The translations under genes were made by a program, and so were the position numbers. The notes under the pieces are model-generated. The model ran no database searches and was not told where the DNA came from. It saw only the letters and a list, made by a program, of their open reading frames with translations. DNA of 64,000 nucleotides, from assembly GCF_033473495.1 (NCBI RefSeq), contig NC_088937.1, positions 3,596,001 through 3,660,000 on the forward strand, written 5' to 3'. This DNA is from Cercospora beticola (lineage: Eukaryota; Ascomycota; Dothideomycetes; Mycosphaerellales; Mycosphaerellaceae). Of the stretch, positions 35,354 through 60,413 are shown in pieces (position 1 is the stretch's first letter; each line of letters begins with the position of its first letter).

Positions 35354-36916
35354 TCAATAGAGTGCTGCATAGGGGTTTCCCCAGACTGATGGGACCCACA
35401 GCCACGCCTCTGTCTCACCTGGCTGGAATGCGAAATCTTCTGATGATGGGATGAACGAAGGCAGTCCATCAAGGGATTCGAAGTCGCTTGATGCGAGCTC
35501 CTGAGCAATGGGATCGATGCGCAGGTCCGGCGATTCTTCCTCATCTTGCTCGATGTCGAATGGGGTAGTACCTTGCGCAACACTGACCATGGCCGAGCTG
35601 TTGAAGATCTCCGTGAACGTGTCGCTCATGCTCGCTGGGTTGACTGGTACGCCGTAGCCAAGCTCGAATCTGAGAACATCCGAATCACCGGTTGGCAGGA
35701 TTTGGGTGGCGGGTTCGTTGGTCGCGAGACGCGTGCGCTTGACTCTCTTCTTCGCTGGCATGCCGACATCCTCTTCCTCCTGGTCATCGGGCGTGTCTTG
35801 AGTGGGTTGCTTTCGCTTGGGCCGACTCCAGGCTCCCGAACTTGAGACTGGGCGCTTCCCGGTGCCGTAAGTCCCATTTCGATTCTCCGTCGATTTCTGC
35901 TTGCGGGAAGCTTGCGCAACTTCCAAGCTCTTCCCAGCGGCGACGTCCGAAGCCACGAGGGCATCGTATACATTGAGCTGGGTGCCGTCACGAGCGGCGT
36001 CCGCCGCGGCCTTAGCAGCCAGAGCGGCAGACTTGCGCTTCGTAATCGAGTTCTTCTGAATTTTGCGCTTGCCAACGGCGACCTTCTTCATATTAATCGC
36101 CTCCGTGATCTCGGACAGGTCGTATTCCGCCAACACCTTCAGGAAGATGCCACCATAGATGTGGTCTTCTGGTACGGTGTGGTTCCCCGAAGCATCCGTG
36201 TCGTAAAGGATATCTTCCGCGCTCAAGCTTCCATACCCGTTAAAGTCTTCGGTTACGTCGTGGACGTTCTTTGGGAGGACCGTGGCATATGGCGCTGATG
36301 ACGGCAAGGACGCGCTCGTGGTGGCCGGGATGCTCGTCGGGGGCGGGACTCCGTTGTGCACAGCAGTAGCTGATGGCTCGGAGCTTGCCCCATCACGATC
36401 GTTATCGTGGTCTGCACTCGCGTTCTGAAGATTGTCAGGAGGTGAATGGAGTCGCCAAACCCCGGCATTACGTACCGAATTTCCCTCGCCGGCGGCGGGG
36501 TTGGAATAGGGCACAAAGACCGTCGTGTCTTGCGCGTGGCCGGCTCCCATCGACTGCTGCTGTTGGGTGTTCACCGCATCCAGTGTTGCGGGCAGCGTGG
36601 TCGGTGGGGTCGCTGAGTGGTCGCCAGCTGGGCTTCTCGACTCCATGTCCGTGGGGTCCGGGTGACCGTGCGATGGCTGCACCATGCGGCCGACAGCTGG
36701 CGGGGGCTCATCGTGCGGGCTGAATGAGCGAGCAGACTTAGCGTGGTTGGGTGCGCCTGGCATAGTCAGTAAGCGGTTGTGCGCGGTAAGTGGTAGCTGG
36801 AGGGACTCACGAAGCTCAGGCAACTTCGCCTCGGCCGTCTCATTCAGCATCTGCGTACTGAGGGTTTGCGCCTTCTCAGAAGACGCCTGCGAGCGAGCTG
36901 ACGATCGGTGGTGCAT
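35354..36916 (-). CDS. cluster paralog 1: disordered protein with helix-turn-helix-like core (about 485-520 aa)
   Basis: The frame 36916-35354 is open for 520 aa. Two stretches have full intron signals and are multiples of three without stops: 36757-36810 (GTGAGT...CTGAC...CAG, 54 bp) and 36425-36475 (GTACGT...CTGAC...CAG, 51 bp). Removing them gives 485 aa. The N-terminal half is Ser/Pro/Thr/His-rich and probably disordered. The core at about residues 248-310 reads EDHIYGGIFLKVLAEYDLSE, then ITEAINMKKV, then NSITKRKSAALAAKAAAD, the same pattern as the other cluster genes. A basic nuclear-localisation-like stretch (PKRKQP, PAKKRVKRTR) and an acidic C terminus follow. No family is recognised. 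A nuclear DNA- or protein-binding role is inference from the basic patches and the helical core. Confidence 0.72.
   Translation of the reverse strand: MHHRSSARSQASSEKAQTLSTQMLNETAEAKLPELRESLQLPLTAHNRLLTMPGAPNHAKSARSFSPHDEPPPAVGRMVQPSHGHPDPTDMESRSPAGDHSATPPTTLPATLDAVNTQQQQSMGAGHAQDTTVFVPYSNPAAGEGNSVRNAGVWRLHSPPDNLQNASADHDNDRDGASSEPSATAVHNGVPPPTSIPATTSASLPSSAPYATVLPKNVHDVTEDFNGYGSLSAEDILYDTDASGNHTVPEDHIYGGIFLKVLAEYDLSEITEAINMKKVAVGKRKIQKNSITKRKSAALAAKAAADAARDGTQLNVYDALVASDVAAGKSLEVAQASRKQKSTENRNGTYGTGKRPVSSSGAWSRPKRKQPTQDTPDDQEEEDVGMPAKKRVKRTRLATNEPATQILPTGDSDVLRFELGYGVPVNPASMSDTFTEIFNSSAMVSVAQGTTPFDIEQDEEESPDLRIDPIAQELASSDFESLDGLPSFIPSSEDFAFQPGETEAWLWVPSVWGNPYAALY
36425..36475 (-). other. possible in-frame 51-bp intron in cluster paralog 1
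   Basis: Donor GTACGT, branch-like CTCCTGAC and acceptor TTCAG, in frame and without a stop, so both the spliced and retained forms would be translatable. Confidence 0.6.
36757..36810 (-). other. possible in-frame 54-bp intron in cluster paralog 1
   Basis: Donor GTGAGT, branch-like TTACTGAC and acceptor CCAG. Its length is 18 codons and it is free of stops, so splicing is not forced by the frame. Confidence 0.65.
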
Positions 36917-38504: not shown

Positions 38505-41027
38505 TCACTTGTTATCAGGATCGAACCTTGAAAAACAGTCCTTTTCGTGGTCGTCGAAGTGTCGCCCGGCACCATTGCACCCCCAGCAGAAGACATTGCC
38601 AGGCCAGTCCCAAAAGTAGTCCCAGTCAGGCTCTAGATCATGCGATTCATCTGGTTGCTCAGTCTCTGGGATAGGTTGTTCATCCTCTTGCTGATCGTCT
38701 TGAGGATGTACTTGTGGCTGGGCCTGTACGACGTCTTGTGCATCGTCGAGTGAGTGGTCTTGTGGCTCCTGTTCCTGGGCCTGCTGCTGGGTTTCGCCTG
38801 ATACCATCGCGGTATCGTTGCTCTGTGGCTGCGTCTGTGGGGAAGGATCAGCTGGAGAAGCTGCGATTTCCTCGCTGTGGTCTTGGGTTTGCTGTTGCAG
38901 CTCGCCTGAAGAGATTGGAGTGTCATCGAGTTGCTCCTGGGCTTGCTCCTGATCTTCGCTGGACGATACTGCAACCTCAGTCTGTTCCTGAGTCTGTTGC
39001 TGGGGCTCGTCTGGCGATGCTGCACTATCCGCCAAATGGTCCGAGGTCTGCGGCGCAATCTCGTTTGGTGATACCGCAGGACCTTCAATCGGCTCTTGAG
39101 TCTCCTGTGGACTGTCGCCCGCCGATACTGCGGCGTCCTCGATTTGCTCTTGAACCAGTTGCTGACTCTCGTGTGGAGCGACTGCAGTATCATCAATCTG
39201 ACCCTGTGTCTGCTGGTCATCCTTGTCTGGGGACATCGCAGTATCCACGATCTGCTCCTGAGCCTGCGGTGCACTCTGGCTTGGAGATACTGCAGCGTTT
39301 TCGATCTCCATTCCAGTCGGCTGCTGGCTCTCCTGTGGCGATACTGCAGCATCGTTACTCTGTGAAACCTCGTCGTTGGACTCCTGGGGCTCATCGACCT
39401 CCATTGGCGTGGCCGATGCCTCGTTTGCAGGCTGCTGGGTGGCCCATTGAAGGAACCAAGTCTCACTCTGACCCAGTACGGGACGCAAGACGTTGTCTGA
39501 GGGTCCTTCGCTCGCTGGTGCAACGATAGCACCAGTCTGCACACCTTCCATTGGCTGTGAGAAGGTCCTCGCGACATTTCCTTGGAAGGCGGAAGCTGGC
39601 ATTGCTGAAGCAGTTGGTGCCATATCGTCTGACGTAGCAGGAGCTTGTATCGTTGGAGAGGTGGGAACTGCATCGTCCCGAAGAGCAGGATCTAGCAGCA
39701 CTGGTGGGGAGGAGGGCCGCACAGCATCGGATGCGGTTGCCGACGTAGAATGGTCGAGGTTCTGCTGCCCCCTAGACTCTGGTGCCATCAATGGTCGTGC
39801 TGGCGTGTGCTGGACCTGACTACTGCTGCCGTATGCACGAGAGGGTGTAGATGAGGAGGCTGCAGCATTGTTCGTGGGTGGGGCTTGGAGGGCTGGAATT
39901 GATGCAGCCGGATTTTGTGCTGGAAGAGTTGCTCCACTTGATGGAGCTGCATCATCGTCATCAGAGCGGCAGCAGGTTGCAGCGGCGTAAGTCGCCGGGT
40001 TGTTCAATCTGGTACGCCACAAAGCAGCTTGCGTCCTATCCTTACTCGCGTCCTTGAGTGCTTTAGCATTGGCTTGATAATTGGCTTTCCCGAAGATGTG
40101 CTCGATCGCATTCTTGACCCGATAGTGGACGACTTGCTGGGACTTCGGGCCGAATGCGGTCATGCCCTCAAGCTGCTGTCGTCTGTCGCTCAATTTTTTC
40201 ATCAGCTCACCCTTGCCGTATGTCAGGTATAGCACGAGGATCACTCCGCCGAACATGTGCTCGGTGTGGACTTGAGCCAATATTTGATCAGCTGTCAATC
40301 CAGCGTAAGGCACCGCGCTATGATGGTGTGGTTTCCTTGGCTGGATCGCACGATGTGCTGGCGGAGGTGGAGCTGGGAGTGCAGCTGGTGCTGGTGCTGG
40401 TGGCAGTACTGGCATGGCTGCGGGTACGGCCGGGGCAGGAGGAGGCGTAGAAGGCGCCAATGCTTGCAGCATCTCGATACTTTGACCTGCGCCAGGGATC
40501 CAACACCTCTGCTGAATGTACCACAAAGTGTGGGTGCCCTGTCTCCCCGGCTGCGATCGGTAGATGTCAAGCACGACTGGCTGAGCGGGATCTTGTGATT
40601 TGGCAAGAACTGCTACATCGTAGACATACCTGCCTCCGTAGAATGCCGAGTATTGGCGAAGGTCGTACAAGAACTGGCCCATGTCGAAGTAGGGCGTGCT
40701 GAGGCCGATAGTGAAGCCTGGGGGCGGAAGGGAGTACGGAGGCTGCATATTGTGGATGCCATTGCGCAGTTGGGCCGATGGAAACGCTGATTGAGCAACG
40801 AAATGCTCTGCTGCAGCGAACTTGGCTTGGTCTACAGCATCTTGGACGTCAGTAGTTGCGGCGTTGATGGCTCTTAGCCGCAGCTTGTTGACGATGAGAG
40901 TCGTTGTGAGTTCGTCCAGGGGTTTTTCGTGGGCCAGGACAGTCTCACGCGATGGATTGGACGGTCCGTAGATTGGGATGCCGTGGTAGAGTTGCTTTTG
41001 TGCACCATTTGCTGGTGCTAATGCCAT
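38505..41027 (-). CDS. cluster paralog 2: large disordered protein with core, 18-residue repeats and C-terminal CCHC-like motif (840 aa)
   Basis: Single exon from ATG 41027. Residues 1-175 form a folded-looking domain (GFTIGLSTPYFDMGQFLYDL, GGRYVYDVAVLAKSQDPAQP, TLWYIQQRCWIPG) that has a counterpart in paralog 7. A proline/alanine hinge follows. The shared core is at about 255-345: EHMFGGVILVLYLTYGKGEL, MKKLSDRRQQL, VVHYRVKNAIEHIFGKANYQ and LNNPATY. Then come Ser/Ala/Pro-rich disorder, about ten 18-residue Gln/Glu-rich repeats encoded by 38806-39341, and an acidic tail. The C terminus, FWDWPGNVFCWGCNGAG...H...DC, contains Cys-x2-Cys-x9-His-x3-Cys, a possible zinc knuckle unique to this copy. 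No family name is known to me. The frame is intact and the gene is the largest of the cluster. Confidence 0.78.
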   Translation of the reverse strand: MALAPANGAQKQLYHGIPIYGPSNPSRETVLAHEKPLDELTTTLIVNKLRLRAINAATTDVQDAVDQAKFAAAEHFVAQSAFPSAQLRNGIHNMQPPYSLPPPGFTIGLSTPYFDMGQFLYDLRQYSAFYGGRYVYDVAVLAKSQDPAQPVVLDIYRSQPGRQGTHTLWYIQQRCWIPGAGQSIEMLQALAPSTPPPAPAVPAAMPVLPPAPAPAALPAPPPPAHRAIQPRKPHHHSAVPYAGLTADQILAQVHTEHMFGGVILVLYLTYGKGELMKKLSDRRQQLEGMTAFGPKSQQVVHYRVKNAIEHIFGKANYQANAKALKDASKDRTQAALWRTRLNNPATYAAATCCRSDDDDAAPSSGATLPAQNPAASIPALQAPPTNNAAASSSTPSRAYGSSSQVQHTPARPLMAPESRGQQNLDHSTSATASDAVRPSSPPVLLDPALRDDAVPTSPTIQAPATSDDMAPTASAMPASAFQGNVARTFSQPMEGVQTGAIVAPASEGPSDNVLRPVLGQSETWFLQWATQQPANEASATPMEVDEPQESNDEVSQSNDAAVSPQESQQPTGMEIENAAVSPSQSAPQAQEQIVDTAMSPDKDDQQTQGQIDDTAVAPHESQQLVQEQIEDAAVSAGDSPQETQEPIEGPAVSPNEIAPQTSDHLADSAASPDEPQQQTQEQTEVAVSSSEDQEQAQEQLDDTPISSGELQQQTQDHSEEIAASPADPSPQTQPQSNDTAMVSGETQQQAQEQEPQDHSLDDAQDVVQAQPQVHPQDDQQEDEQPIPETEQPDESHDLEPDWDYFWDWPGNVFCWGCNGAGRHFDDHEKDCFSRFDPDNK
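38806..39341 (-). repeat. 54-bp coding minisatellite (about 10 units) in paralog 2
   Basis: Successive 18-residue units such as SPSQSAPQAQEQIVDTAM, SPDKDDQQTQGQIDDTAV and APHESQQLVQEQIEDAAV show fixed length and diverged sequence, with one unit a residue shorter. Consensus is roughly S-P-x-E-x-x-Q-Q-x-Q-E-Q-I-x-D-x-A-V. It encodes a Gln/Glu-rich, probably extended region. Confidence 0.92.
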
Positions 41028-42929
41028 CGTGGCTGTTGGTAGGTCCGAGTCCAGCTCGGTCGAAGTGTTAGCGGTTGATTGATGTGTCGTCGATGTTATC
41101 GTTGAAAACAGCAGGTATGTTTACTGAGCTCAAATGTGTATGATGATCGATCGAAGGAGAGAGGCAGAAGATATCAGTAGGAGACGGGTAGGTCAAGCGC
41201 GTGAAGCATCTTGAAGACAGTAGCTTGCTCAAAGCAAGTGATATAATAGATTTGTTGCCCCCAGACAAGGCCTTTGTTCTACTGGCATACTGCTATTCCT
41301 CTGCATCTTCGCAACGATACACATAATTCAATCTTGTTGTTGCAATGGTCTCGCGCGTCGTTCTGTAGGAGAAAGGGCATGTGTGTGATGTCTTCAGCCC
41401 TTGAAAAGTCAAGAAAACTCTGGGTCGAAAGCATGACGCTTACTGGTCTTGGGGACACTTTCTTTGTTGTTGGTTTTCCTTTGTCATAGATAGGAGATCT
41501 GTACCTAGAGCCATGCATCGAATCTGCAAGATTACGACACAACGAGGATCGCCGGACGATGGTAGGTTCCGGCAAGTCGATTCGTGAGTGTATAGATTTC
41601 GAAATAGATATATACATCTTGAGCAGGAAGGAATGGGTGCATTCGGAGGAGAGATATGCGGAGTATTCAATGGAGTGGGTCTGCGAACAGGTTGAGCTCA
41701 CACAAGTGGGCATCGTGCCGGATTCTACCTTCTACTATTCATTTTGTTTGTACAAACAAATTCTCAAAGGCGTGCATGCACCTGGGCTGAGATGAAAGAA
41801 ATTGCCCTTTCTTGGCTTACCTACGATCGATCGCACCGAGTACCAGCCATGGCCATGTAAATACGAAATGTGAGGCAATTTGGCTTTTGCTCTTGTGGCG
41901 AGCAGCACCTGAGTAGGAGCGAACTCCACAGGTATCTCTATTATCAGTACTCAAATGCAGCAGAAGGAGTGATAAAACCATTAAGATGTTATGAGAGCTC
42001 GTAAAGCAATCCTCATCTCTTCTGAGACCCGACACAGAGAATATTCTCCGACCAGACAACGAGCAGTTGTGCTGACACGCAATTGTCCGCAGTTTTGAGC
42101 ATTGGCTTTTGCTTGAACAAGGCACGAAACTACTTTTTATACTGGCTAAATTGACCCTTGCTGTGCAAAATTTCCCATCCCTCTAGGATCTCGTAGTCGT
42201 TCTTGACTTTCTCGTGCAAAAGGGTGAGCTGCTCAGTTCACATGCGCTGGCGAGGTCGAAGCTATATAGCCAAGCTATTTTGGGTGTTCGGCTGAGAGTC
42301 CAGATATCATCACGAAACAAGCTTCCTAATAATCCCGAATGATATAGTGTGAGTTTGAGCTTTGATTTCACGCCCTCATTGCAATCGAATGTCTCTCGGC
42401 GCTTTTGCAGGCTGAGTGAACGAAATATGCATTGTCTTGTAGGCGATACCAGTAACCTGTTTCGAAACATCTGGTTGATAACGATGAAGCCAGGCAGATT
42501 GCGTCCAGAGCACAATACCACGTTGCCGTTGTGGCATCGTTTCCTTGTCATGCCCAGAGGGGACAAAAATGCCACGCCTAGCTTCTAGTTTATATCTCCA
42601 ATGTCAGGTAGCAATTTGAGAACAGTGATAGCAGTGAGAAGAGTGTTTTAAAGAGTGTTGTGGGGATGCTCCAGATTTCTTCGCCGCAGAAAGGGATGGC
42701 TCGCCCGTTATTACCTCCATGGAGACTGGAGCAGAGTAGTAGCTTTGACCATGGTTTCGGATTCTCGCAAGCGGTTGCAAATAAGTCTTCACATGCTCCT
42801 CAACTTGTCAGAATAAAGTCTCTGGGTCCACCTAAAAGCTGCCGCCGTCACTGAAGTGCCGCATCGAAAGTTCGCCATCGGCTTACAGCCAGGCTGTACC
42901 AGGTGTATGCGACTCCAGGTCCACATCTT
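41028..42929. other. intergenic, 1.9 kb, promoter of paralog 2 and decayed edge of the tandem array
   Basis: No gene is supported. Weak matches to the array anchor occur at about 42659 (gtgttgtggggatgc) and about 42507 (attgcgtccagag), in phase with the ~155-bp period. The array may therefore once have started further left. Confidence 0.45.
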
Positions 42930-45900
42930 AGAAAGAAGTTCAAGTATCTCTCACTCGACTAAGACGATGAGCGGGAGTTGCTAAGTTGCCGCCACTGCAT
43001 ATCCGGCTTCTTCGATTCTGGTCTTTTCTGTAATGAAGTATAATAGCCTTCAGAAGTTGAGCTTCACTCAAAGTCGTTATGCGGCTCACAATTTCTAGCA
43101 CAGTCATGCCGGGTGAGACGCCATGCGGGAGTCGGTACGTCGTTACTGCTATAGATTATGATCGATCCCCTTTTCGGCCGCTTTCGCTCCTTCGCAATCC
43201 AACAGTCATCCCGGTCTCCAGGACGGCACGTAGAAAACATTGCTACGTACGAAAACCTCGGAAGAGCTGTGGTGCGGGAGTGTTGCACCTTTGTTACCGC
43301 ATTCTCAGTCATTGGGACCACGTTCTCCTCCTACGGCCCGACCATGTGGCAGGACCTGCTCACGACGCCAGGTCACCACCAGGATCCATTTTTTGCGCTA
43401 TAATACAGGCGGCAAAGTTCGCTCCGGGAGTGCTATGCGATTGTTGATGCTCTCAGACATCATATCTCAGTCGTCCGTGCCCGAGGTGCTCTACTGACCC
43501 AAATAGAGAAGCACCATCGTATTGATCTCGGGTAGCATTCTCAGCAGAGTGTTTATGGATGTATCTATCAGCCAAGATGCCATGCGGGAATGCTGAACGT
43601 TTGTTGCGACCTGCAAATGGTCATTCAAGGCCGATTTTACGCTTTTCACCAAACTGCCGAAATAGTCCAGAATTATCTCCTCCACCTCGGGTCGTCATCT
43701 CGGTGTGTCTTTCACGAACGTATCTATCATCCAGAATGCCATGCTGGAGTGCTATGCCAATACGGCGACTTGGAGATGGCCTACTCAGGCCGATTTCACG
43801 CTTTTTGCCCAACCGGCTAAAATGGCCAAGAAACATCATGGCCACTTGGGGTCGTCGTCTCGTTGAAGTGTTGACGGGTGTATCTCTCCAGTGAGATGCC
43901 ATGCGGGAGTGGCATACTCTTGTTGCGACCTCCTGAGCTCCTTCCTAGCTCAATTTTGCGCTTCGTGTCCAACCAGCTGTAATTGTGGAAGATGATAGCG
44001 ATGATCTCGGGTCGTCATTTCAGGGAACCGCTGACGGAGCCTTCTGTCGAATAAAGTGCCTTGCTGGAGTGCTGCACCATTTTGGTGGCTTCGAAAATTG
44101 CTGCCTAGGCGAATTTGACGTCTGGTGCCGAAATGCCTCCAATGGCGGAGAATCATCACGTCCACCTCGGGTCGTCATCTCCGTGAAGTGTTTGATATCG
44201 CCTCTGTCCAGCAAAATGACATGCGGGAGTGCGGGAGGATTGTTGTCGTGGTGTCCTTTGACGTGCGGCGTCACCAAATCCATTTTCTCAACCAGCGACC
44301 ATTCGCCCGGCACTCTTCGTGACGGATCGCCGGTCACCATCTGAAAGAGGTTCTGAGGCATGAATTCATCGAGCAAGATCGCGTCCGGGAGTTTGCACGC
44401 GGTCTTTCAGCATTTGGTCAACTGATTCGATTTCCAGCCCAAATTCCCCCAACCGCGTGTTTTCGCGACACCACTCGTCTCTCATCTCCGGTCACGAGCT
44501 GGATATTCTTTTTGAAGGCGTACAATTTGAATGAGACGCGATGCCGAGGTCAGCAGTATCAGGTTTCATATCTGGCCGTCCAGCCCGTTCTGACATCCGG
44601 GAGCGAGCTGAACAGACAACATAACGCGTCTCCCGATCTCCGGTCATGACTTGGACGGAATTTCTGGACACCTCTTCGTCAAATGAGACGCGTTGCGGGA
44701 GTTAAGACGCGTACATCTGGTGCGTGGTTGCTCGACCCGTTTCTAAGCACAGCACTCCGGTCGAGGGGCAGCAGCAATACATGTCACCGATCCCCGGTCC
44801 TAACTTGAAATAAGTTATTGAGCGCGTAAGAATCCAATAAGATGCGATGCGGGAGTCAGCGCTCTTGGGTTCTCCGGAAACGGTCACTCGCTTCACTCCC
44901 GTGGCCAGCAGCTACTTCAACAAACAACACCACGCGACTCTTACCTCCGGTCACGACTTGGACCAATTATTTGAGTCTTTCTAAGCCGATCAAGACGCGT
45001 TCCGGGGATTGTGACGCGTGGATTTGATGCAGAATTGCTCGATCCGTCTCGAAGCCCAGCTCGCAGATGGACGGGCAACGACAACACATGTTCCCGACTC
45101 CCGGTCGCGCCCTGGAAGAAGTCTTTGAGCGTGTTAACATCCCATAAGATGTGGTGCGGAGATGGTATGCTGAGGTTCGGTGCGTTGCGTTGCGATCCGG
45201 TCTCCTGCTTGTCATCCTATTGAACGAACACGGAAAGTCGTCTCGCACTCCCGCTTCCAATTGGAATCAAGGTTTTGACTGGTTTTCCATCGAATGAGAC
45301 GCGTTCCGGGGATTGAGACGCGTGGGTTTGATGCCGGAGTGCTCGAGCCGTTTCGAAGCCCAGCTCGCAGATGGACGGGCAGCAACAACACATGTTACCG
45401 ACTCCAGGTCGTGGCTTGAAATAAGTCTTTGAACGCGTTAATCTTGAATGAGACGTGTTGCGGGGATGCCTTTCGCAGGTTTGTTGACTTGAAAGAGAAT
45501 TCGTTCTCATGGCCAGCAGTCCATCGAGCGAGCACGGAAAGTCGTCTCGCACTCCCGCTTCCAATTGGGATCAAGTATTTGAGTGGTATTCCATCGAACA
45601 AGACGCGGTCCGGAGATGGCATGTTTGTGTTGAGTGCCTGGAAACTAAATCCGTCCTGATACCAAGCACCCAGTGGAAGGGGCACCAGCACTCGTTCCGC
45701 ACTTCGGCTCCCGACTCAAGATGCGTATTTGAGTGTATTTCCATCGAATGGAACGCTTTCCGGCGGAGGTCACACACTCGTCGTTGGTGCCTAGAATCGT
45801 TTCCTGTTCTTCTAATTCCACACCGGCCACTTCAAGGACCATCAACAGTCGTCTCGCGCTCCAGGTCCCATCCTAACATGAGAGTTTGAGTGCTTCCAGA

Positions 45901-46230
45901 TCCCACGAAATACGTTCCTGACATGCGGCGCTTGGGTTCGGCGCCTGGGAGCACAATTCGTTCTCAGACCCAGCAAGGAGTCAAAATCGACATTGGTACT
46001 TGTCTCACACTCCCGCTCACCATTCAAGAAAGATTCTCACGCACAGATTCACTGGAAAAGACCTTGTGCGGGAGTGGTACGCTGTTCTAAATTGTGTTTG
46101 GTCACGCTAGGCCGACCAAATTTTGTGACCAGCACTTGTTGGGAGTTGGCAGCAATACTCGCCTCGCACTTCGGTTTCCTCTGCAGATCGACAGCGTATA
46201 CACATAGTGTCCGGGACCGTATACAGTACG
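42930..46230. repeat. degenerate tandem array, about 22 units of 150-160 bp
   Basis: An anchor resembling (T/C)CGAATGAGACGCGTTGCGGGAGT recurs at about 42972, 43126, 43275, 43425, 43585, 43744, 43904, 44064, 44224, 44386, 44545, 44696, 44850, 45003, 45157, 45307, 45461, 45611, 45761, 45918, 46069 and 46212. Spacing is near 160 bp in the left half and 150-154 bp in the right. Each unit also has a second block about 95 bp after the anchor, close to CTCGCACTCCCGGTC or CACCTCGGGTCGTCATCTC, followed by ACTTGGAxxAAG. Pairs such as units 45307 and 45461 share long stretches (gcccagctcgcagatggacg also at 45060). It lies between paralogs 2 and 3. No transposon ends, CRISPR-like short spacers or intact frame were found. 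Confidence 0.85.
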
Positions 46231-46666
46231 GCTGCTGATCCCAGACCTGTGGCGTCAGTCACTTCTCCGGGATCGACGGCAACGCCTTCTTTTTCAACTT
46301 ATGCCCAGCAGACAGTATGTGTGCAGATGGTGACGGACACTAGGCAGAAACGTGCTTTGGCAACAGTAATGCAGACAGCATATGCGCGGCTCGGAAAGAC
46401 TGAGAGAGGTAAGTACAACGACTTTGGCAATTGGCAGTGGAACAAGACGCAAAGCTCAGCGAAGTTTCTTATTGCGTTGATAATGTCTATTAATGTAAAA
46501 TTACAGCTCTCATAAAATGGAAAATTGCTTTGAACGTCCATGACTGCTTCCAAGCCGCTTCAGAAACCTCCATGCGTTGCGATAATCCTTCGTACCTCTC
46601 TCTCTGGCCTCGTCGAAGCTGTTCGGAAACATCACGAAGCTCCTTTTAATCCTGGCACTCCAGCTA
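46231..46666. other. spacer between the tandem array and paralog 3
   Basis: 436 bp with no supported gene. It is the 3' flank of paralog 3. Array-like sequence fades out by about 46230. Confidence 0.5.
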
Positions 46667-48715
46667 CTAATTCTGCTCGTGACCGTGCTCAGAAGAGTCT
46701 TGGTCTCCTCCATCACTGCCCTGGTCATCAGCTGACGCGTCGTACTGCCCGTGAGCTGAGCTCGGCGCATTGGCCTGCTCATCAGCTGGTGGATCGTGCT
46801 GCCCAAGAGCTGAGCTTCGCTCGTTGTACAGGTGACTAGCTGGTGGATTGTACTGTCCAACAGCTGAGCTCGGCTCGTTGTACTGCGGGAAGAAGTCACT
46901 CATGTTGGGCTGTTGAACGCCGCCAAAAGTTGGGTTGGCCTCACTGAAGAAAAATCGGTCTTGGTCAAAGCCGTTAAAAGCGTCAGAAGTGAATCCGCTC
47001 AAGTTCACGTTGCTCAGATTGCCGAACTCAGATGTGGCGAAGCCCATGTCGCTGTTTGGTGCGTTGGTAAACAGGTTCAGATCGAAGTTGCCCTCGCTAT
47101 CGAAGCTTCCCACGTTGTCCTGGGGCGTGTATGGTCCTAACGGCGGACTTGAAGGGATGTATGTGCTCTGCTGAGGTGCGTTGCCGTAGCGTGATGCTCT
47201 GTCGCTGTGCTCGGCGTTGAATTGGGCGATGGGCGCCATGACTTGGGCCTGGTGTGCTGGGAATGCCGGGAGATTGGAAGGACCAGTTGTGGCACTCTGG
47301 TAAGTTGATTGATCACCTTGAATGAACGAATACCCTTGAGTTAATGGTGCTTGAGGGTAAGCTGGTTGAGATGATGTAGTAGCATCTTGAAAGAACGAGT
47401 GCCCGTAAGTGGATTGTGCTTGCGGGTATCCTGTTTGAGGCTCGCCTTGCCATCTCTTGGTGCTGTCTTCGCCATTGTGCAAATCAGAGGCAGCTGCTTT
47501 TCGCTTGCGACGCGGAGCTTTCGCCGCGGGGCCACTCTGACCAGGCACGCTCGAAATGGTGTTGAGACCTGCCGCATTGGTATTTGGGACATTTGGTGCC
47601 ATAGACGGGTTGGAAACAGGCGTGAGACCGGCTGCAGCCGCCTGAGAGACATGTTGTGGGTCTTGTGTTGCATCTTGGGTCGCCTGATTCTTGTTGCAGC
47701 CTTCACACTGCTCAGTCGGATTGATTTGGTAGGTTGCCGGATCCTTCAGCATGTCGATGTACTTCTGTCGAAGGACAGGGTCCTTTTGAGCGTCTGAGTA
47801 CTCGTTGCGGCGCGCTTTGTAAGCAGCTCCCTTGGGCACGCCGAAGATGTGCCTGATGGCATGTTCGACGCGTTTATCGAAAGCCTTCGTGGACATGAGC
47901 TTTCCATCTTGTAGTTGCTCGCCTTCACGTTTTGCATTAAGCATTCCTGCGACTTTGGTGAAGGGAATACCGGCGAGCCCAACGAGAAGAGCTCGAGCAC
48001 CGCAAATCTGCTTCGTGTCGATACCGCTGTTGGCCTCAAGGAGCTGCTTTCCAGTCTTATCGCCGCATATCTCGAGAGTTGCGTGGTTGCGACCCACTCT
48101 GACAGACGTTGTCGTGACCCCTGGTGTTGCATTGAGACCCAGTGCCTGGTTCAGAGGCGTTGGCTGAGATGCAGTTGGCGTGAGGTTGTTTGTCAATCCT
48201 GCTTGGAACCCGGGGTTTGAGACATCGGTGCCGCCATTCGCATCATCGAGAGCCAACTGTGGTGTCGTGGTTGATGACGGTGGAATCGAAACGGACTGCA
48301 CACTGTCTTGATGGCCACTGTCGGTTTGCTGATCGAATTGCTGCGTGGCACTCAATATTGAGGTATCTTGCGCCTCGAATGACGAGACGCCTTGGGGAAC
48401 TAATTGCGAAAGACCCTGGGTGTTGGCCGCTGGGGCATCTGTTGGAGGTTGAGACGTTGGGGGAGCGCTCTGAACCGATGCAGCACTCGAGTCCACGGCC
48501 GCCGACCGAACGTCAAGAGCCTCTCCATGTGGACCATCGGAGGCTCTCGTCAAGCTGAGCGACTCTGTGCTTGATGTGGCGCCGTTGTGAGGATCGGCGG
48601 CGTCGTTCTCATGAAGTAATGCAACCAGTTCTGCAATAGTCATGTAGGGCGACACGCGGGCGATGGACTCCAGATAGTGCATGGAGATCCCCGACTGCGT
48701 CTCCTGCCCCGCCAT
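46667..48715 (-). CDS. cluster paralog 3: two-module disordered protein (682 aa)
   Basis: Single exon from ATG 48715. The N-terminal module (residues 10-35) reads ISMHYLESIARVSPYMTIAE followed by LVALLHEND and matches the start of paralog 4. After ~190 disordered Ser/Thr/Gln-rich residues comes the shared core at about 229-340: SGIDTKQICGARALLVGLAG, KVAGMLNAKR, STKAFDKRVEHAIRHIFG, AQKDPVLRQKYIDMLKDPAT and INPTEQCEGC. A basic patch (APRRKRKAAASD) and a long Gln/Asn/Ser/Tyr/Pro-rich tail follow; the tail ends in repeated ALGQHDPPADEQ-like units. The nuclear patch and helix pattern suggest a regulatory or chromatin role, but no family is recognised. Closest relative in the window is paralog 4. 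Confidence 0.78.
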   Translation of the reverse strand: MAGQETQSGISMHYLESIARVSPYMTIAELVALLHENDAADPHNGATSSTESLSLTRASDGPHGEALDVRSAAVDSSAASVQSAPPTSQPPTDAPAANTQGLSQLVPQGVSSFEAQDTSILSATQQFDQQTDSGHQDSVQSVSIPPSSTTTPQLALDDANGGTDVSNPGFQAGLTNNLTPTASQPTPLNQALGLNATPGVTTTSVRVGRNHATLEICGDKTGKQLLEANSGIDTKQICGARALLVGLAGIPFTKVAGMLNAKREGEQLQDGKLMSTKAFDKRVEHAIRHIFGVPKGAAYKARRNEYSDAQKDPVLRQKYIDMLKDPATYQINPTEQCEGCNKNQATQDATQDPQHVSQAAAAGLTPVSNPSMAPNVPNTNAAGLNTISSVPGQSGPAAKAPRRKRKAAASDLHNGEDSTKRWQGEPQTGYPQAQSTYGHSFFQDATTSSQPAYPQAPLTQGYSFIQGDQSTYQSATTGPSNLPAFPAHQAQVMAPIAQFNAEHSDRASRYGNAPQQSTYIPSSPPLGPYTPQDNVGSFDSEGNFDLNLFTNAPNSDMGFATSEFGNLSNVNLSGFTSDAFNGFDQDRFFFSEANPTFGGVQQPNMSDFFPQYNEPSSAVGQYNPPASHLYNERSSALGQHDPPADEQANAPSSAHGQYDASADDQGSDGGDQDSSEHGHEQN

Positions 48716-49722: not shown

Positions 49723-51654
49723 TCATCGTCGGCCGCCTGCCTCTTGTTCTTTCTGTTGGCCTCTATTGGGTTTCCTGTGGCTCCTCTCCAGGCGCCTTTC
49801 AGCTCCTTCGTCAGCTGGCATTTCGTTGCCCCAGAAATCCGAGCCGAGAGTACTCTGCTGTGGTGGCTGCCATTGTGAAAATGTTCCATCCGAGCCGAGT
49901 TGTTGAACCGCATCGCCAGGAGCGTCGCTGATGAGATAACCATCTGATCGGCCATAAGCCGAAGTAGTGACTCCCATAGCGGCCGCTGCATCACTGTTGA
50001 TAGCGCTACCCATGTTGCCTGCGTTTTCATGGTAGTACGTGTAGCGAGGTACCGGCGGGCTGGAGGGCGGGATGTCCACATTGCTTCTGTCATTGTGGTA
50101 GGATGTGTAGCGTGGCACTGGTGGACTGGAGGCCGGAACAGTGCTTTCTTGCATCCATGAGCCAACTTCGAATGTTGACTGTGATGGTGGATGCAGAAAG
50201 TCTAGCAAACCATTCGCGAGAGTAGATTCATCAGCCGGGTATTGTGACTGAGTGCGTTCACTCGTCTCATTGCGTTCGTTTGCCTCGCTCTGGTATGAAT
50301 GCTGAGGCGGCATAGCGTATGTCTCACTCGTGGAATCTGGCTGCGGCAATTGTGATGTTTGATCTGCGCCGTAACCTGCTCCTTGTCGTCGCTTGGAAGC
50401 AGGGTGGATAGCTTGTGTGTTTGATGCCGTAGCAGGACGCTTGCGGCGTGGAGCAGGCATTGACTGAGCAGGAGCTGCAGGAGTTGGTGGGTTCAACATG
50501 CTCTCGATTGTCCAGCTGCTGGGTACAGCACTCAGAGCTGGAAATGAGCTACCCGTGTGCACACCTCCATACAACTGTGGTGAGCTCTGCTGCAGTTGTC
50601 CTGTCACACTCTGGTTCGACTTGCTCTCTGTCATGTCCTTGTTCTTGGTGCAACGTTCACACCGGCTGCGTGGGTTGATGAGGAATGTCTTCCGGTCTTG
50701 TAGCATGGCGATGTACTCGGTACGCAGCACTGGGTCGTTTTGCGCTGCGTTAAAGGTGCTGCGATGTGCCTTGTAGCTAGCATCGTCAAAAGCTCCGAAT
50801 ATGTGCCTAATGGCATTCTCCACACGTTTGCGAAAAGTCTTGGTTGAACGAATCTCGCGAGCTGAAGGGCGATCTACTGCTCGTTTATCATTCAACATCT
50901 TGGTGACCTTGCTCTCTGGCATCTTTTCAAGAGCGATTCGGAGGATGAGGCCGCCGAAGATCTGGCTGATGTCAATGCCGTTACCTTGTGCGAGTAGATT
51001 CTCGGCATTCATGTGGCCGTAGGACTCCAGACTGGCGTGGTGGTCTTGAGGGAAGAGCGATTGACGGGCGCCTGTATGCGGTCCAGATGCCAGAACTGGC
51101 TGCTGTGGGAAATATTGAGAGACACCCGGCGTACTGTTCGTGAAAGAAGATACCCCGTAGGTGGGCGCGACTGAATTGGGAAGAAAGTCTCCGCTGTTGG
51201 CAGCAGACGTAGCTGCGGCGGATTGAGAGCTTGTGCCAATTGTGGTCATTGGTGGATAGAGGGACTGAAGATGATCTTGCCCTGACGGAGTAATAGCGCT
51301 TGCCTCAGAGAGCTCCGCTGCTGCGTAGGCTGAATATGAACCAGGGGTGGGAACTGGGATGTCTTTGACGTTGTTCGATGACGGGTCCTGAGCCGCAGAT
51401 TTAGCAGCACGAGAAGGCTGCGTTGGCTGCTGAGATGGCACCTTCGGCTGAAGGACACTCTCTGCGTCCTGTATCTCTGAGACGCTGACAATCTGAAAGA
51501 TTTCGCGGTTTGAAGTCTCATCGTTGCTATCATCATCCCCGGCGACTTGGTGGACTTTTTCCACAAGCTCCGCAACGGTCATGTATGGCGTTGAGTCGGC
51601 GATAGACTCGAGCTGCTGGATGGACAGCCCCCAGAGGAGCTTTGGTTTCGACAT
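49723..51654 (-). CDS. cluster paralog 4: two-module disordered protein (643 aa)
   Basis: Single exon from ATG 51654. The N-terminal module is GLSIQQLESIADSTPYMTVA followed by ELVEKVHQVAG, aligning with paralog 3. The shared core at about 224-335 reads NGIDISQIFGGLILRIALEK, KVTKMLNDKR, STKTFRKRVENAIRHIFG, AQNDPVLRTEYIAMLQDRKT and INPRSRCERCTKN; this is the clearest version in the cluster. A basic patch (APRRKRPATAS) and a Gln/Ser/Tyr-rich tail follow, with a duplicated VPRYTSYH/VPRYTYYH motif and a basic C terminus. No family is recognised. The similar layout, shared promoter block and neighbouring position indicate that paralogs 3 and 4 arose by tandem duplication. Confidence 0.8.
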   Translation of the reverse strand: MSKPKLLWGLSIQQLESIADSTPYMTVAELVEKVHQVAGDDDSNDETSNREIFQIVSVSEIQDAESVLQPKVPSQQPTQPSRAAKSAAQDPSSNNVKDIPVPTPGSYSAYAAAELSEASAITPSGQDHLQSLYPPMTTIGTSSQSAAATSAANSGDFLPNSVAPTYGVSSFTNSTPGVSQYFPQQPVLASGPHTGARQSLFPQDHHASLESYGHMNAENLLAQGNGIDISQIFGGLILRIALEKMPESKVTKMLNDKRAVDRPSAREIRSTKTFRKRVENAIRHIFGAFDDASYKAHRSTFNAAQNDPVLRTEYIAMLQDRKTFLINPRSRCERCTKNKDMTESKSNQSVTGQLQQSSPQLYGGVHTGSSFPALSAVPSSWTIESMLNPPTPAAPAQSMPAPRRKRPATASNTQAIHPASKRRQGAGYGADQTSQLPQPDSTSETYAMPPQHSYQSEANERNETSERTQSQYPADESTLANGLLDFLHPPSQSTFEVGSWMQESTVPASSPPVPRYTSYHNDRSNVDIPPSSPPVPRYTYYHENAGNMGSAINSDAAAAMGVTTSAYGRSDGYLISDAPGDAVQQLGSDGTFSQWQPPQQSTLGSDFWGNEMPADEGAERRLERSHRKPNRGQQKEQEAGGRR

Positions 51655-52940: not shown

Positions 52941-54928
52941 TCAGAGGGTAATGGAATCGCCTCCCTCTTCAGAATGCCCAAGCGTGTCGAGCTCTGGATC
53001 CAGCTGGAACTTGTTGCCTCTCATGTAGCTCTCCCGATTGCCCTCACTGTCAACCATCTGGTGGGTAGTAGTTCCATTGTTGCCCAGCAGATGCTCCTCG
53101 CCTAGTGTCAGGCCGCTTTTGCCAGCATCAAAGCTGTCTTGTTGCTCAAATTCTAGACTGCTGTCGACATCTTGCGCAAACTCATTCAGGGCGGCTGGGC
53201 CCTCATGATAGTAAGGAGTTGTCGATGTTGGTGGCTCCATGCTCGGATATAGCCCACTACCCATTTGCGTGATGGTGTCCTCGATGTCTTGCTGCCCGTG
53301 ATCAGGGCCCTTCGATGCTTCGGCTATTCCAACACCCATTCCACTTGCGGCATCGATTGGCTGTGCAAGAGTCGATGGAGCTGAATGATGACTGACAGCT
53401 GCGGAAATTCCTTGATGCACCGATAGACTCTCTGCACCCTCGGCGTGGTCAAGGTGAGAGTTGCCCAGCAAATGCTGGCTCTGAATACCAGCAACCTCCT
53501 CTTGGTCCTCCGAATGATGGTTGGGAACAAATGAGCTCTCGTTGTTGTGGTTGCTAGCAGCGAGCGTCGTCAGCCTATCAGGCTGAGCGCGAAACTCTCC
53601 TTGCTGCTGCTCGCGATGTGCAGCATTCTCATCACTCAACTTGCGACGCTTCGAAACAGCTCTGCTCAATGTCTCGCAGCTCGTATCAGAGCCTTGTGTA
53701 TCGTGAGCACGCTTGTGGAGGCGTGACGATGCGCCACCAACTGTCTCGGCGGCCGCCGCGTAAGACGTAATCATCTGTTCCTCGCTGCTTGTCTCGCCCA
53801 TAGAGGCTGGCCCAGGACCGACACCGGTGGCAGAGGCAATGGCGGACGATGATGCGGCAGGAGTTGAGGCACTCGAACGACTCTGGGATGCTTGTGCTCG
53901 CGCGTGTTTTGCGGGGCAGCCGGCATATGTGCAGATGCTTATCGGGTTGAGCTCAGAGCTGTCATCGGCTACCAGCATGGCAATATAGTTTTGACGAGCT
54001 TGATCGGTCTTCTGAGCAAGCTTCAGTGCGTCTTTCGAGCGCTGGAGGTTGTCCGGGCCGAACTTGTGGTTGAGAGCACCCGCGAGCCGCTTGTCGAAAA
54101 GCTTTTCTTTGACCAGATCCTCATCCGTGCTGTTCTCCGCCTGATGCTTCTCGTTGATCATTGCCTCAACTCTCTTCGGTGAGGGGATATGCGCTGCGAT
54201 GTACAACGCCTTAGCGCCGAAGAAGGTATCGATATCGATGCCGTTTCCAGGCCTGAATATTTGCGCGATGGTCATTCCAGCGAAGAACCCCAACTTTGTG
54301 TGGTGGGGTTCGGCAACGATGTTGACTGTGCTCTTGATATGGCGTCTGTTTCCGCCCTTGCGTTGCTTCCTAGACGCTGTGCTGTTGACCGTGGCAGTGA
54401 GCTGGCCTTGATGATCATGGCTCAGTGGTTGCTGAGAATACTGCGGCGATGTGGCCATAGACGGAGCGGATACCGACGCAGGCTGAACATCTGCACCTTC
54501 AATGGGTGGGTAAGACAGCGCATTTCCCTCGTCCACACGCTGGCCGCCCATGTTGGCTGTCGGGAAATTGCTTGCCGCCAAGCTTGATGTTGCGACTGAC
54601 GCCCCAGCCTCTGGCTGATGTGTTTGACCTAATGCACGGGCTCTTACTTCTCTCAACTCCTAGTTGAGACGGGCAAGAACCTCGTCCATGTCGACATCAC
54701 GCAGTCGAAGTGCGTCATGATCAGACCCCATATCCTGAATGGCAGCGACGATATCCCCCACTTTGACGAATCCGAAGTTGTCGCGGATTTGCCTCAACTC
54801 CGTCATGGTGATCTGGCGGGTTGACATTGCCGCTGTGGCTGCCGCGGGTGCGATACCTAGGTGCTGAGATCAGTATGCGCGCATGAATTGAGATGCCAAT
54901 GTCGCGGCTTACCTGAGGGGGTGTCCAT
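52941..54928 (-). pseudogene. cluster paralog 5, interrupted by an in-frame TAG
   Basis: Exon 1 (54928-54913, MDTPS) joins exon 2 at 54856 across a 56-bp intron. Exon 2 encodes the N-terminal module (MTELRQIRDNFGFVKVGDIV followed by AAIQDMG) and then meets TAG at 54662-54660. The same frame stays open from there to 52941, another ~570 residues. It includes the core NGIDIDTFFGAKALYIAAHI, KRVEAMINEKHQ, KLFDKRLAGALNHKFG, ARQNYIAMLVADDSSELNPI and a C-x4-C pair, then a basic patch (SKRRKLSD) and an acidic Gln/His/Ser tail. AAC-TAG-GAG would be AAC-CAG-GAG by one C-to-T change. No plausible intron removes the stop and keeps the module. Alternatives are a strain-specific null allele, stop readthrough, a start at ATG 54551, or sequence error. 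Confidence 0.7.
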
Positions 54929-55932: not shown

Positions 55933-57723
55933 TCAATCGTTGTGTTGGTCGAAGTGCGTTGGCGCAGGGCCGTCGTGGTGAGTATCAATGCCGCCGCCCA
56001 CGTGTGCAGTGATTTCTTCAAAGCTCTGAGCGACCTCTCCAAAGCCTTGTTCATCGTCAACCTGCTGGTGGACAACCGCACCATCGACGTCTTCTGTCCT
56101 CATGCTGTCGCTGGCCTGGTCATCGAAGTACGTGGTAGCGGCATGGAGGCCAGGTGCAGTAAAGGTAGAAGGCGGGTGATTGTGGGCCTCAGCAACTGGT
56201 GCATATCCATTTTGAATCAACCCTGCATTGCCTTGCTGAGAGTATTGATGGTATGGCGCACGGCTCTGAGCTTGATTGCTGGAAAAGAGAGCTGGGTCAA
56301 GAGCAGGATCGTCGGATCCTTGTGCTTGCCCATTCCCTCTCAACACCCGGCCCTGCCGAGCCTTTCGACGCTTGATGTTGACCCCGTCCGGTTGCTCGAA
56401 GGCTGGCTCGGCGTTGTTGACATCTCGTGCGTGCTTGAGCGAGCTAGGCGCTGTGGTCCCGGCGTTGGCATTGAAAACTTCACTGGCAGGCGTCTCGCTG
56501 CTCGACCCATCAAACAAACTCGCAGTTGCCGAGCCTGTCGCGTACGGAGTGCCATAGCCTCCATTCGCTGGTGTAGAGGCGTTCAAAGCGCTCAGTGACT
56601 TCTTCTGTGCACGAGCCCGCTTGCCGATGCAAGACTCCTCCGTACAAACGCTTGTCGGGTTGTGTTCGTTGGTCTGATCATTCATCAACATAGCGACATA
56701 GGCAGCACGCGCTTGGTCATTTTTCCTTGCGTCGCGAATTTCCTCCAAGGAGCTGTCGTAGTTTGCACGACCCAATTTGTGCATGAGAGCGTCCTCCAGC
56801 CGATGGTTCCACGTCCTGTCCTTGAATCTCATCTCAGGCAATCCTTCTGCCTTGCGCTTCTGATTGATCTTCTCCACGGCATCTTTGTGGCCGCTGGAGT
56901 GAGCTGAGATGAACAAGGCACGAGCCCCAAAAAAACTCTTCGGTACTGATGCCGTTATTGGGAGTGAGAATCTCATCCACAGTCTTCCCAGCAAAAATGC
57001 CCATGTCAGCGTGGTGTGGGTTGACAACGAACGTCGGCCTGCTCTTTGCTCTGGCAAGGCCCGTGCTCTTGGCCTTCTTTCTGGGTGCTATGTTGCTGGC
57101 AGTGGCTGCCGAGAGAGCTTGGGATTGAGCGTGGAAAGCGCTGACATCATTACTGGAAGACGTCGTGACTGGCTGTGCTGCCGGTGAGGCATTCCCATTT
57201 CCGTATTCTTGCAAATGCGTGATTTGCGTAGCCTCCGTATCTCCAGTCTGATTGCTTTTAATGATGCTGGAAGTCAAGCTATCCGTTGCCGTGGATGGAG
57301 CTGGCGTTACCGCAGTGCTTGACGAAGATGATGCTTCGTGGTGCGTGAGCTGGGGCTGCTCAACTTGCTGCAAAGCTGGCGGCGGCGGCGGCGAAGTGGG
57401 GCTGTTGGGAGCCAGACCATCAGGAAGCGATGGATTAGCCTGGTCGTCCGTGGCTCGCGAAGAGGCTTGCGATGGTGTTGCGGATTGTGCCACGCGCTGC
57501 TGCTGGGGACGGCCCTTGGCCACCCACATCGCCATGTTGAGGGCGGGGAGGAGTTGATCGAGATCGGCATAGTCGAGCGTAGAGCGGGTGTCTCCCTCAT
57601 ACTGGTTGCGAATGACCTGCATAAGAGTCTCGACTTTCATGAAGCCGAGATTGCGCGCAAGAACTCAAGGTCGTCCATTGTGAAGTAGTGAGGCGGCGCC
57701 TCTGTCCCTACGTTGCCAGACAT
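55933..57723 (-). pseudogene. cluster paralog 6, with a one-base deletion and a one-base insertion
   Basis: From ATG 57723 the frame encodes the start of the N-terminal module (HYFTMDDLEFLR). At about 57653 the codon expected to read GAC (Asp, as in IRDNFGF of paralog 5) is GC. The next frame then gives NLGFMKVETLMQVIRNQYEG and runs through a Ser/Pro/Gln-rich region, a basic patch and DMGIFAGKTVDEILTPNNGI. At a T7 run (56929-56935) the frame changes back and the core continues: FFGARALFISAHSSGHKDAV, KINQKRKAEGLP, RTWNHRLEDALMHKLG, ARAAYVAMLMNDQTNEHNPT and a C-x5-C pair, to a stop at 55933. Six T would restore the frame. Two small indels leave everything else open, so inactivation is recent, or one or both are assembly errors in the reference. 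Confidence 0.7.
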
Positions 57724-58595: not shown

Positions 58596-60413
58596 CTAAG
58601 TGCCGTCATACACGCTGCCGTCAGAATCGTCGCCGTCGTCCTGTCCTCCCAAGTCGTCCTCGACATCGTTCACGTCAACTTCATCTTGGGTCTGGCCGGC
58701 GGTGTTTGCACGAGGTGCGCGATTTGAGCTCCGAAGTGAGTACCCGCCTCCAGCGCCATCCTCCTCGTCATCCTCCATGTCTGTATCTTCTTCCTTATCG
58801 AGATCCATCTCATCGAACTCCTCTTCCATGTCAGAGTCATCACCCGCCACAAATGTCTTCGATCCAGTCTTGCGGCGTTTGCTCTTGCCAACACCTCCGT
58901 TGCCCCCACCACGCTGCGCAGGCTGGCGACCCAAACTCGCATTACGCTGCGTATCGAATTCCTCGCGCAACGCATTGCACTTGGCATTCAATCGTTCACC
59001 AGGCTGGAGTTCAGCTCTAGCTTGTGCTTTGAGAGCGTTGCTGATACGCTTTGTGATGGAGTTGTACTTCGCAGTGCTGCCTTTGTCGGCGAGTATTTGG
59101 TGAATCTCCTTGTTGGTGTAGCGCATGGCTACGCGAAGAATGAGATCGCCCTCCACCGTGTTCGGGTCTGTCACGCCTATGAGTGGATCCACCCCATTGC
59201 CATTGCCCCAGTTGTGGGTGGTCTGTGCTGTTTGAGCAGGCTGGGCGGCGGGCGGCATGGGTGGTTGCGGCTGGTTTGAGGGGCCAGCTACAGGAGGAGC
59301 ATTGGCAGCGAGAGGAGCACCGACGGGTATGGGCTGAGCGCGTGGAGGTGGAATGCCTCGAACAGTGATGGACGGTGACCACTCCTCTGTAAGGTTGCCC
59401 TGCTCGTTGCGTACAAATTGACGGAACAGTAGCACACTGTGGGTACTGGGTGTCGTTCCTGATGATAATGGCAACTCATGTACGAGGAATTGATGGTTGT
59501 TGACGCGAGTTAGGATGAGCATGTCGAAGCAGTATTTGTAGCCATGACGAAGTCTGTCTCCGATCTCCATGTACCTTCGGGCGCCATCGATTACGCGCAG
59601 CGCAGCGAGTGGCGGTAAGATGTGGTTCGCAGCACTCTCGGTCGGAGCCATGGTGAGATCTTGGTCGGAGTTGAACCCAGAAGCAAGTTGCAGGCATTTT
59701 GGCAAATTGGACAGGGAGGTCATCTCCGCATCGGTCGGAAAGAATCCTTTGATCTGGTAAGGCCGCAGGGACAGTTCGAAGGCCGTGGTAGCCGACGTGT
59801 CGTTGAGGCGCCTGATGTAGAATCCAGCGTTCAGGATGTCGGTCAACTTCTGCAGGGCAGATGCTGTGCCAGTGATTCGCAGTGGTTGATCAATACCCTG
59901 TAGCACTCGCTGGAACTGAGCTGTGAGGAGGGCGGGACCGCCGGTCGGGGGCTGAATTTGGTTCTGCATGTTGAATGGTGTTTCAGACCGTGGGTCCGGG
60001 TTGTGCGTGTAGGGTTTGGAGTCCGCAGGTGCAGTTGTTTGCGAGAAGGATGCTCGTGATGGTCGAGCGTTGTGCGAGATGGGGTTCAAGGGCGAGCGAA
60101 GTTGTTGGCTGTAAGTGTTGTGTGTCGGTGTTGACGTTGTAGCGGGAAAGTTAGGGTAGCTGTTGTTTACTGAAGCGAAGCGACGCCCGCGTTGCGTTGA
60201 AGCGGGATTATAAGTTGTTGTGGTGCGAGTATTGGCGACGCGCTCGAACGTCAAGGGCTTTGTATCAACAAGCGCATTGTCCGAAAAGAGCGGCATTGGC
60301 GTCAGGTAACTGGCCGGCTGATCGGAGCGAAAGTGCTGCATGATGACTAACTTTATCCGGTTGCCCTGAGCGAACTTCAACCATGAAGCGGGAAGCTCAA
60401 ATGTTTTGTACAT
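58596..60413 (-). CDS. cluster paralog 7: disordered protein with shared N-terminal domain and core (605 aa)
   Basis: Single exon from ATG 60413. After a Thr/Ser/Asn-rich N terminus (about 1-165) comes a folded-looking region (LTAQFQRVLQGIDQPLRITG, FYIRRLNDTSATTAFELSLR). A segment at about 295-350 (HGYKYCFDMLILTRVNNHQF, HSVLLFRQFVRN) has the same order and spacing as residues 130-170 of paralog 2. A proline-rich hinge leads to the core at about 417-494: TVEGDLILRVAMRYTNKEIH, QILADKG, NSITKRISNALKAQARAE. A basic patch (KSKRRKTGSK) and a very acidic Asp/Glu tail with SLRSSNRAPR end the protein. No Cys pair follows the core, unlike paralogs 3-6. No family is recognised; basic and acidic tracts suggest a nuclear or chromatin-associated protein. 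Confidence 0.78.
   Translation of the reverse strand: MYKTFELPASWLKFAQGNRIKLVIMQHFRSDQPASYLTPMPLFSDNALVDTKPLTFERVANTRTTTTYNPASTQRGRRFASVNNSYPNFPATTSTPTHNTYSQQLRSPLNPISHNARPSRASFSQTTAPADSKPYTHNPDPRSETPFNMQNQIQPPTGGPALLTAQFQRVLQGIDQPLRITGTASALQKLTDILNAGFYIRRLNDTSATTAFELSLRPYQIKGFFPTDAEMTSLSNLPKCLQLASGFNSDQDLTMAPTESAANHILPPLAALRVIDGARRYMEIGDRLRHGYKYCFDMLILTRVNNHQFLVHELPLSSGTTPSTHSVLLFRQFVRNEQGNLTEEWSPSITVRGIPPPRAQPIPVGAPLAANAPPVAGPSNQPQPPMPPAAQPAQTAQTTHNWGNGNGVDPLIGVTDPNTVEGDLILRVAMRYTNKEIHQILADKGSTAKYNSITKRISNALKAQARAELQPGERLNAKCNALREEFDTQRNASLGRQPAQRGGGNGGVGKSKRRKTGSKTFVAGDDSDMEEEFDEMDLDKEEDTDMEDDEEDGAGGGYSLRSSNRAPRANTAGQTQDEVDVNDVEDDLGGQDDGDDSDGSVYDGT

Follow-up and report, generated by a model that had tools for sequence, protein, structure and literature searches.

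Seven consecutive genes, p1 to p7, lie on the minus strand at 35.35-60.41 kb of a 64,000-nucleotide stretch of the Cercospora beticola genome (contig NC_088937.1; hereafter the window) and share a core that is apparently a compact helical domain of ~90-140 residues, matching no known family in the searches made. The arrangement had been described in an earlier note on this DNA, and the open reading frames (ORFs) bear it out. We assign a probability of roughly 0.45 to the reading in which these genes form a tandem birth-and-death family, seen here only in Cercospora, whose proteins act in the nucleus and possibly bind DNA or chromatin. The observation in the earlier note is partly confirmed, and its interpretation partly supported. 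The genes, all on the minus strand, are as follows.

35354..36916, minus: p1, ORF of 520 amino acids (aa)
38505..41027, minus: p2, 840 aa, with a long Q/E/S-rich C-terminus
46667..48715, minus: p3, 682 aa
49723..51654, minus: p4, 643 aa
52941..54827, minus: p5, 571-aa ORF at 52941-54656 and an upstream N-terminal motif at 54827-54663
55933..57640, minus: p6, two overlapping frames, 56834-57640 and 55933-57057
58596..60413, minus: p7, 605-aa ORF

The shared core and its predicted fold

Sequence comparison indicates that the cores of p2 to p6 are homologous beyond composition. With the SEG filter on and for a nominal database of 500,000 letters, BLASTP among the paralogs joins p2-p6 (p3/p4 2e-33, p5/p6 8e-20, p3/p5 9e-13, p2/p4 4e-8). 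A hidden Markov model (HMM) of the p3-p6 cores recovered p2, which lay outside the model, at 1.4e-11 among the 314 ORFs of the window and matched none of the 314 reversed ORFs. The same HMM missed p1 and p7 at E<=5. These two form their own distant subtype (B), marked by NS(I/V)TKR and tied to the rest solely through profile comparison: hhalign pairs p1 with p7 at E 4.5e-5 and p1+p7 with p2-p6 at E 0.0012 (in either case no column shuffle out of 100 scored as well), and p1+p7 with p3-p6 alone at E 0.01 (1 of 100). In the joint alignment p7 is in register as far as helix 4.

35897..36169, minus: p1 core (subtype B), by hhalign with the p7 family
39903..40346, minus: p2 core, by match to the p3-p6 profile (1.4e-11)
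47681..48103, minus: p3 core, NPTEQCEGC included, 47% identical to the p4 core
50620..51042, minus: p4 core, with an AlphaFold2 model
53892..54329, minus: p5 core, by BLASTP, alignment and profile
56608..56970, minus: p6 core in the downstream frame, its first ~12 residues lying upstream of a frame change
58914..59186, minus: p7 core (subtype B), by profile comparison

The core motif as written in the earlier note describes p3 and p4 well, fits p5, p6 and p2 loosely, and hardly applies to p1 and p7. Its count of four members with an NPx..C..C tail is correct: NPxxxC...C occurs in p3-p6, with the spacing CxxC in p3/p4 and CxxxxC in p5/p6. A zinc ribbon was considered for this tail and set aside because only two Cys are conserved and model confidence is low there. 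The closest kin by BLASTP adjoin each other, p3 beside p4 and p5 beside p6, and this adjacency fits what tandem duplication leaves. In the core tree (11 rows) 6 of the 8 inner branches stayed open, and no order of descent is read from it.

AlphaFold2, from 7 sequences only, models the p4 core as a confident helical domain (predicted local distance difference test 82, predicted template modelling score 0.78), with main helices at core residues 31-38, 43-57, 67-82, 88-100 and 104-115 and a nine-residue loop between helices 2 and 3. The helical part of the small helix-turn-helix (HTH) domain envisaged earlier is thereby retained, and an HTH fold for the core is possible on this model. No Pfam family of the HTH, Myb or homeobox type turned up for any of 8 ORFs at E<=1 or for any of 9 rows scanned to E<=10. 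When ORFs and cores were run against Pfam and NCBIfam, no family emerged, just weak, scattered and unrelated rows (such as F-protein 0.28, a serine-rich family 0.17 and DUF4355 0.05), in agreement with the earlier note, whose author knew of no described family with this core. A PDB sequence search with the core returned protein A chains (best 1e-4); no stretch passed alone, and these rows are read as helical-composition noise. Six gene tags of the family, that of C. zeina not among them, occur in no open-licence paper.

Copies, conservation and lesions

Single-protein searches of the whole genome (36.07 Mb, 10 contigs) in six frames, with best candidates only, give a lower bound on the number of copies: just the seven genes and a p1 fragment with one stop on another contig (C7:2319038-2319529). 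A row on C9 (E 0.49) is at chance level. The fragment is 84% identical to p1 in the core and 79% in DNA, with a ratio of non-synonymous to synonymous substitution rates (dN/dS) of 0.17 over 109 codons. It is bracketed by two ORFs, apparently paralogs of each other (635-1246 and 2317-2961 of the C7 locus L015), which contain no Pfam family at E<=0.1; an F-box identity for them was a guess without Pfam support.

Protein searches covered 5.8 billion proteins. Residues 1-345 of p4 matched 2 proteins, from C. beticola and C. kikuchii, and residues 160-500 of p7 matched 4: its own, from the second start, and those of C. kikuchii, C. zeina and C. zeae-maydis. The joint profile search, in which just the 7993 candidates with the most shared words were scored, gave 5 proteins at E<=1 (both p4 matches, the own p1, RHO25_005425 and a C. 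berteroae ortholog) and did not list the same-species p2, p3 or p5. Orthologs are accordingly placed for p7 in three further Cercospora species, for p4 in C. kikuchii and for p1 in C. berteroae. The clade-confined matches foreseen in the earlier note are found insofar as all named matches belong to Cercospora; because the joint profile search missed known members, restriction of the family to this genus, as far as searched, is provisional and weakly tested. The C. kikuchii tags of p7 (000024400) and p4 (000024700) are 300 apart, on contigs of equal size, which suggests that gene order may be kept there, as though other cluster genes stood between them.

Judged by sequence identity, core conservation exceeds that of the flanks in most comparisons, not in all. 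Between p7 and its C. zeina / C. zeae-maydis orthologs, identity is 56/67% in the core, 49/55% in the N-terminus and 37/28% in the linker (49-52% over the whole length). The p1 core is 90% identical in C. berteroae against 69-81% for other parts, and p3 and p4 share 38 and 55% in the two core halves, 25-26% in the disordered parts and 42% in the N-terminal motif. The strict core retention claimed earlier fails in C. kikuchii p7, whose core (80%) falls below the N-terminus (90%) and N-domain (91%). In C. kikuchii p4 the first core half is 84% identical and other parts 64-66%; the second half is 12% identical, with 51 of 75 positions gapped. Genes of the C. kikuchii genome were annotated by BRAKER2/Augustus prediction (PMC8496228), and either a false intron or a real loss may explain the gap.

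Broken members are present, as had been noted: p6 changes frame within the core near 56.93 kb, and in p5 an in-frame stop (54660-54662) separates the N-terminal motif from the rest, with no consensus intron found there. Assembly error is possible for both. Together with the stop in the C7 fragment and the uneven conservation, these lesions fit birth-and-death evolution, in a milder form than strict core retention would imply.

Putative nuclear signals, the p7 N-domain and competing explanations

Patches resembling a nuclear localisation signal (NLS) follow the core in 6 of 7 members, as the earlier note had it for most of them:

35726..35749, minus: p1, KKRVKR
47498..47512, minus: p3, RRKRK
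50437..50448, minus: p4, RRKR, opening a bipartite-looking patch
53640..53651, minus: p5, KRRK
56362..56373, minus: p6, KRRK
58869..58880, minus: p7, KRRK, then an acidic tail

Shuffled versions of the six patch-bearing proteins have such a patch anywhere in 24 to 101 of 500 cases. All seven cores carry a basic net charge (+1 to +8). Within the p4 core, helix 3 is more basic than any other helix (net +4), and its R belongs to the 5 alignment columns that never vary among the 7 rows. We infer that the chain around the core is largely disordered and rich in Q/S/P/A. Nuclear location of the proteins appears likely, and the chance that the core binds DNA is somewhat less than even. From these features we infer nucleic-acid binding and regulation by the family: the NLS-like patch would direct the protein to the nucleus, where helix 3 would touch DNA or a partner in chromatin through its basic face, KR(V/I/L)xxA(I/L). 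Other factors would be recruited or excluded by the disordered arms, which are acidic in p7 and rich in Q in p2, and the paralogs would serve as variant regulators.

Several results weigh against this reading. The p4 core model lacks a significant match in the PDB, and none of Foldseek's 12 rows is clearly an HTH, although look-alikes should abound for a plain three-helix HTH; the second structural comparison covered 68 (core) and 724 (p7 N-domain) chains chosen by Foldseek, leaving room for families outside these. No NLS-like patch was found in p2, and the p5 core is nearly neutral (+1). The subtype mates p1 and p7 sit at opposite ends of the cluster, the predicted C. kikuchii p4 ortholog (P0002) lacks helix 3 through the Cys tail, and the joint profile did not list the p7 proteins already known, despite the p7 cores it contained. 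The missing HTH-like match, the charge of p5 and a conserved part that runs beyond helix 3 to helices 4-5 and the NPxxxC tail, exceeding a minimal HTH, would also suit a core that mediates protein-protein interaction or dimerisation in nuclear scaffold proteins and makes no DNA contact. The basic helix 3 with its invariant R argues otherwise, and we regard this alternative as unlikely, if well worth keeping in view. A formerly functional family now drifting without function would account for the lesions and the doubtful C. kikuchii p4; it is improbable given the open frames of 520-840 codons kept in p1, p2, p3, p4 and p7, the identity of p7 and p1 to their orthologs, and the low dN/dS of p1 against its C7 copy.

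The N-terminal regions bear on a further explanation. A motif appears common to p3-p6 (the likeness of p5 comes from alignment alone), and p7 has an N-domain of its own; like the p1 fragment on C7, neither is mentioned in the earlier note:

48602..48691, minus: p3 N-terminal motif LESIARVSPYMTIAELV (p3/p4 BLASTP 9e-6, residues 9-67)
51541..51630, minus: p4 N-terminal motif LESIADSTPYMTVAELV (BLASTP)
59352..59936, minus: p7 N-domain, residues 160-354, OTU-like by predicted structure only
40446..40640, minus: p2 residues 130-194, resembling the C-terminal strands of the p7 N-domain (hhalign E 0.011, 0 of 100 shuffles)

In the structural comparison of the modelled p7 N-domain, OTU folds fill the 39 best rows, all with low Z (5.3-2.8). 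Foldseek itself placed P2X channels first for p7 (E>=0.23), which we attribute to chance, and listed OTU proteins from E 0.48 onward. The OTU deubiquitinase family (PF02338), which was compared with the p7 N-domain only, is absent from the 5 Pfam rows of the p7 alignment (DUF1351 0.023 and DUF4187 0.33 have one row each), and its 3 matches in the genome all lie outside the window. Against the one OTU protein of the same genome that was used (L018; L016 and L017 were removed by a motif filter), 42 of 60 shuffles were as good in hhalign, and 14 of 60 with p2 added. The catalytic DGxC was found in none of p7, its three orthologs and p2; TH(S/T)(V/L) is kept in all five, with a putative place in the fold. 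When the N-domain was sought in p3, p4, p5 and p1, 21, 1, 44 and 5 of 60 shuffles were as good, p4 being the sole hint (E 0.06). The p7 profile had no match among PDB sequences, a phage search with p7 no match, and Foldseek against viral models 37 rows, 0 of them at E<=0.001.

OTU domains occur in some mobile elements. The OTU-like fold predicted in p7 and partly in p2, along with the p1 fragment on another contig, would fit descent from such an element, its OTU-like and DNA-binding parts kept, p7 nearest the ancestor and the OTU-like part lost in the others; we consider this quite improbable. The most far-reaching version is a long shot: the core would be a new DNA-binding fold family born in Cercospora, p7, the oldest form, would pair it with a catalytically dead OTU-like domain, and the linked, diversifying nuclear regulators would read chromatin and ubiquitin-like signals.

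Surrounding sequence and likeness to known systems

The cluster is flanked by an HsbA-like gene on one side and a TatD-like DNase gene on the other. The former (33791-34486, plus strand) encodes a hydrophobic-surface-binding protein of the HsbA type, whose tail is acidic and rich in Thr/Ser, and adjoins the cluster; a HET-domain gene (23191-24690, plus strand) lies ~10 kb ahead of it. The 5.5-kb gap between p2 and p3 (41121-46666), whose ORFs lay outside the Pfam scan, has no stop-free frame of >150 codons and no core-bearing frame. A decayed tandem repeat fills part of it (43552-46179; period ~160 bp, then 150-159/304 bp); no second genomic copy of the repeat part at 44.3-46.3 kb was found, and Rfam had 0 matches in 41.1-46.7 kb. 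The p3 C-terminus contains a 54-bp tandem repeat (46720-46874) encoding an 18-aa repeat.

Among gene models, p4 is identical to the C. beticola protein P0001 at 641 of 643 residues, and p7 shortens to 581 aa if translation begins at the second in-frame start, the position at which its three orthologs start too. The NCBI model of p1, RHO25_005425 (485 aa), fits two in-frame introns within the 520-aa ORF. The introns predicted at 36757-36810 and 36425-36475 (minus strand) have lengths divisible by three, 54 and 51 nucleotides, and contain no in-frame stop, so that a transcript keeping them would encode 18 and 17 extra residues.

Tandem families of orphan genes are frequent in fungi. Few lineage-born domains have been caught with a confident predicted fold and sister copies still adjacent. 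If the core binds DNA, the cluster would document how a genus develops a class of regulators of its own, with seven paralogs and their orthologs as material for following the drift of binding specificity. If it does not, the core still apparently defines an undescribed domain family worth a Pfam entry. The family resembles lineage-restricted tandem families of filamentous fungi in its tandem same-strand order, fast divergence and broken copies. Many described families of this kind are secreted effectors or HET/NLR-type genes, from which it differs by its NLS-like patches and the lack of any such Pfam domain. From the tri-helical HTH of fungal regulators (Myb/SANT- and homeobox-like) it differs by its further helices and nine-residue loop between helices 2 and 3 in the p4 model, with no HTH among 9 Pfam rows to E 10 (three weak and unrelated) and no PDB chain of this type clearly matched. 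It is like them in its three short helices, the basic third helix with a KR pair, the nearby NLS-like patch and the disordered Q/S/P-rich arms.
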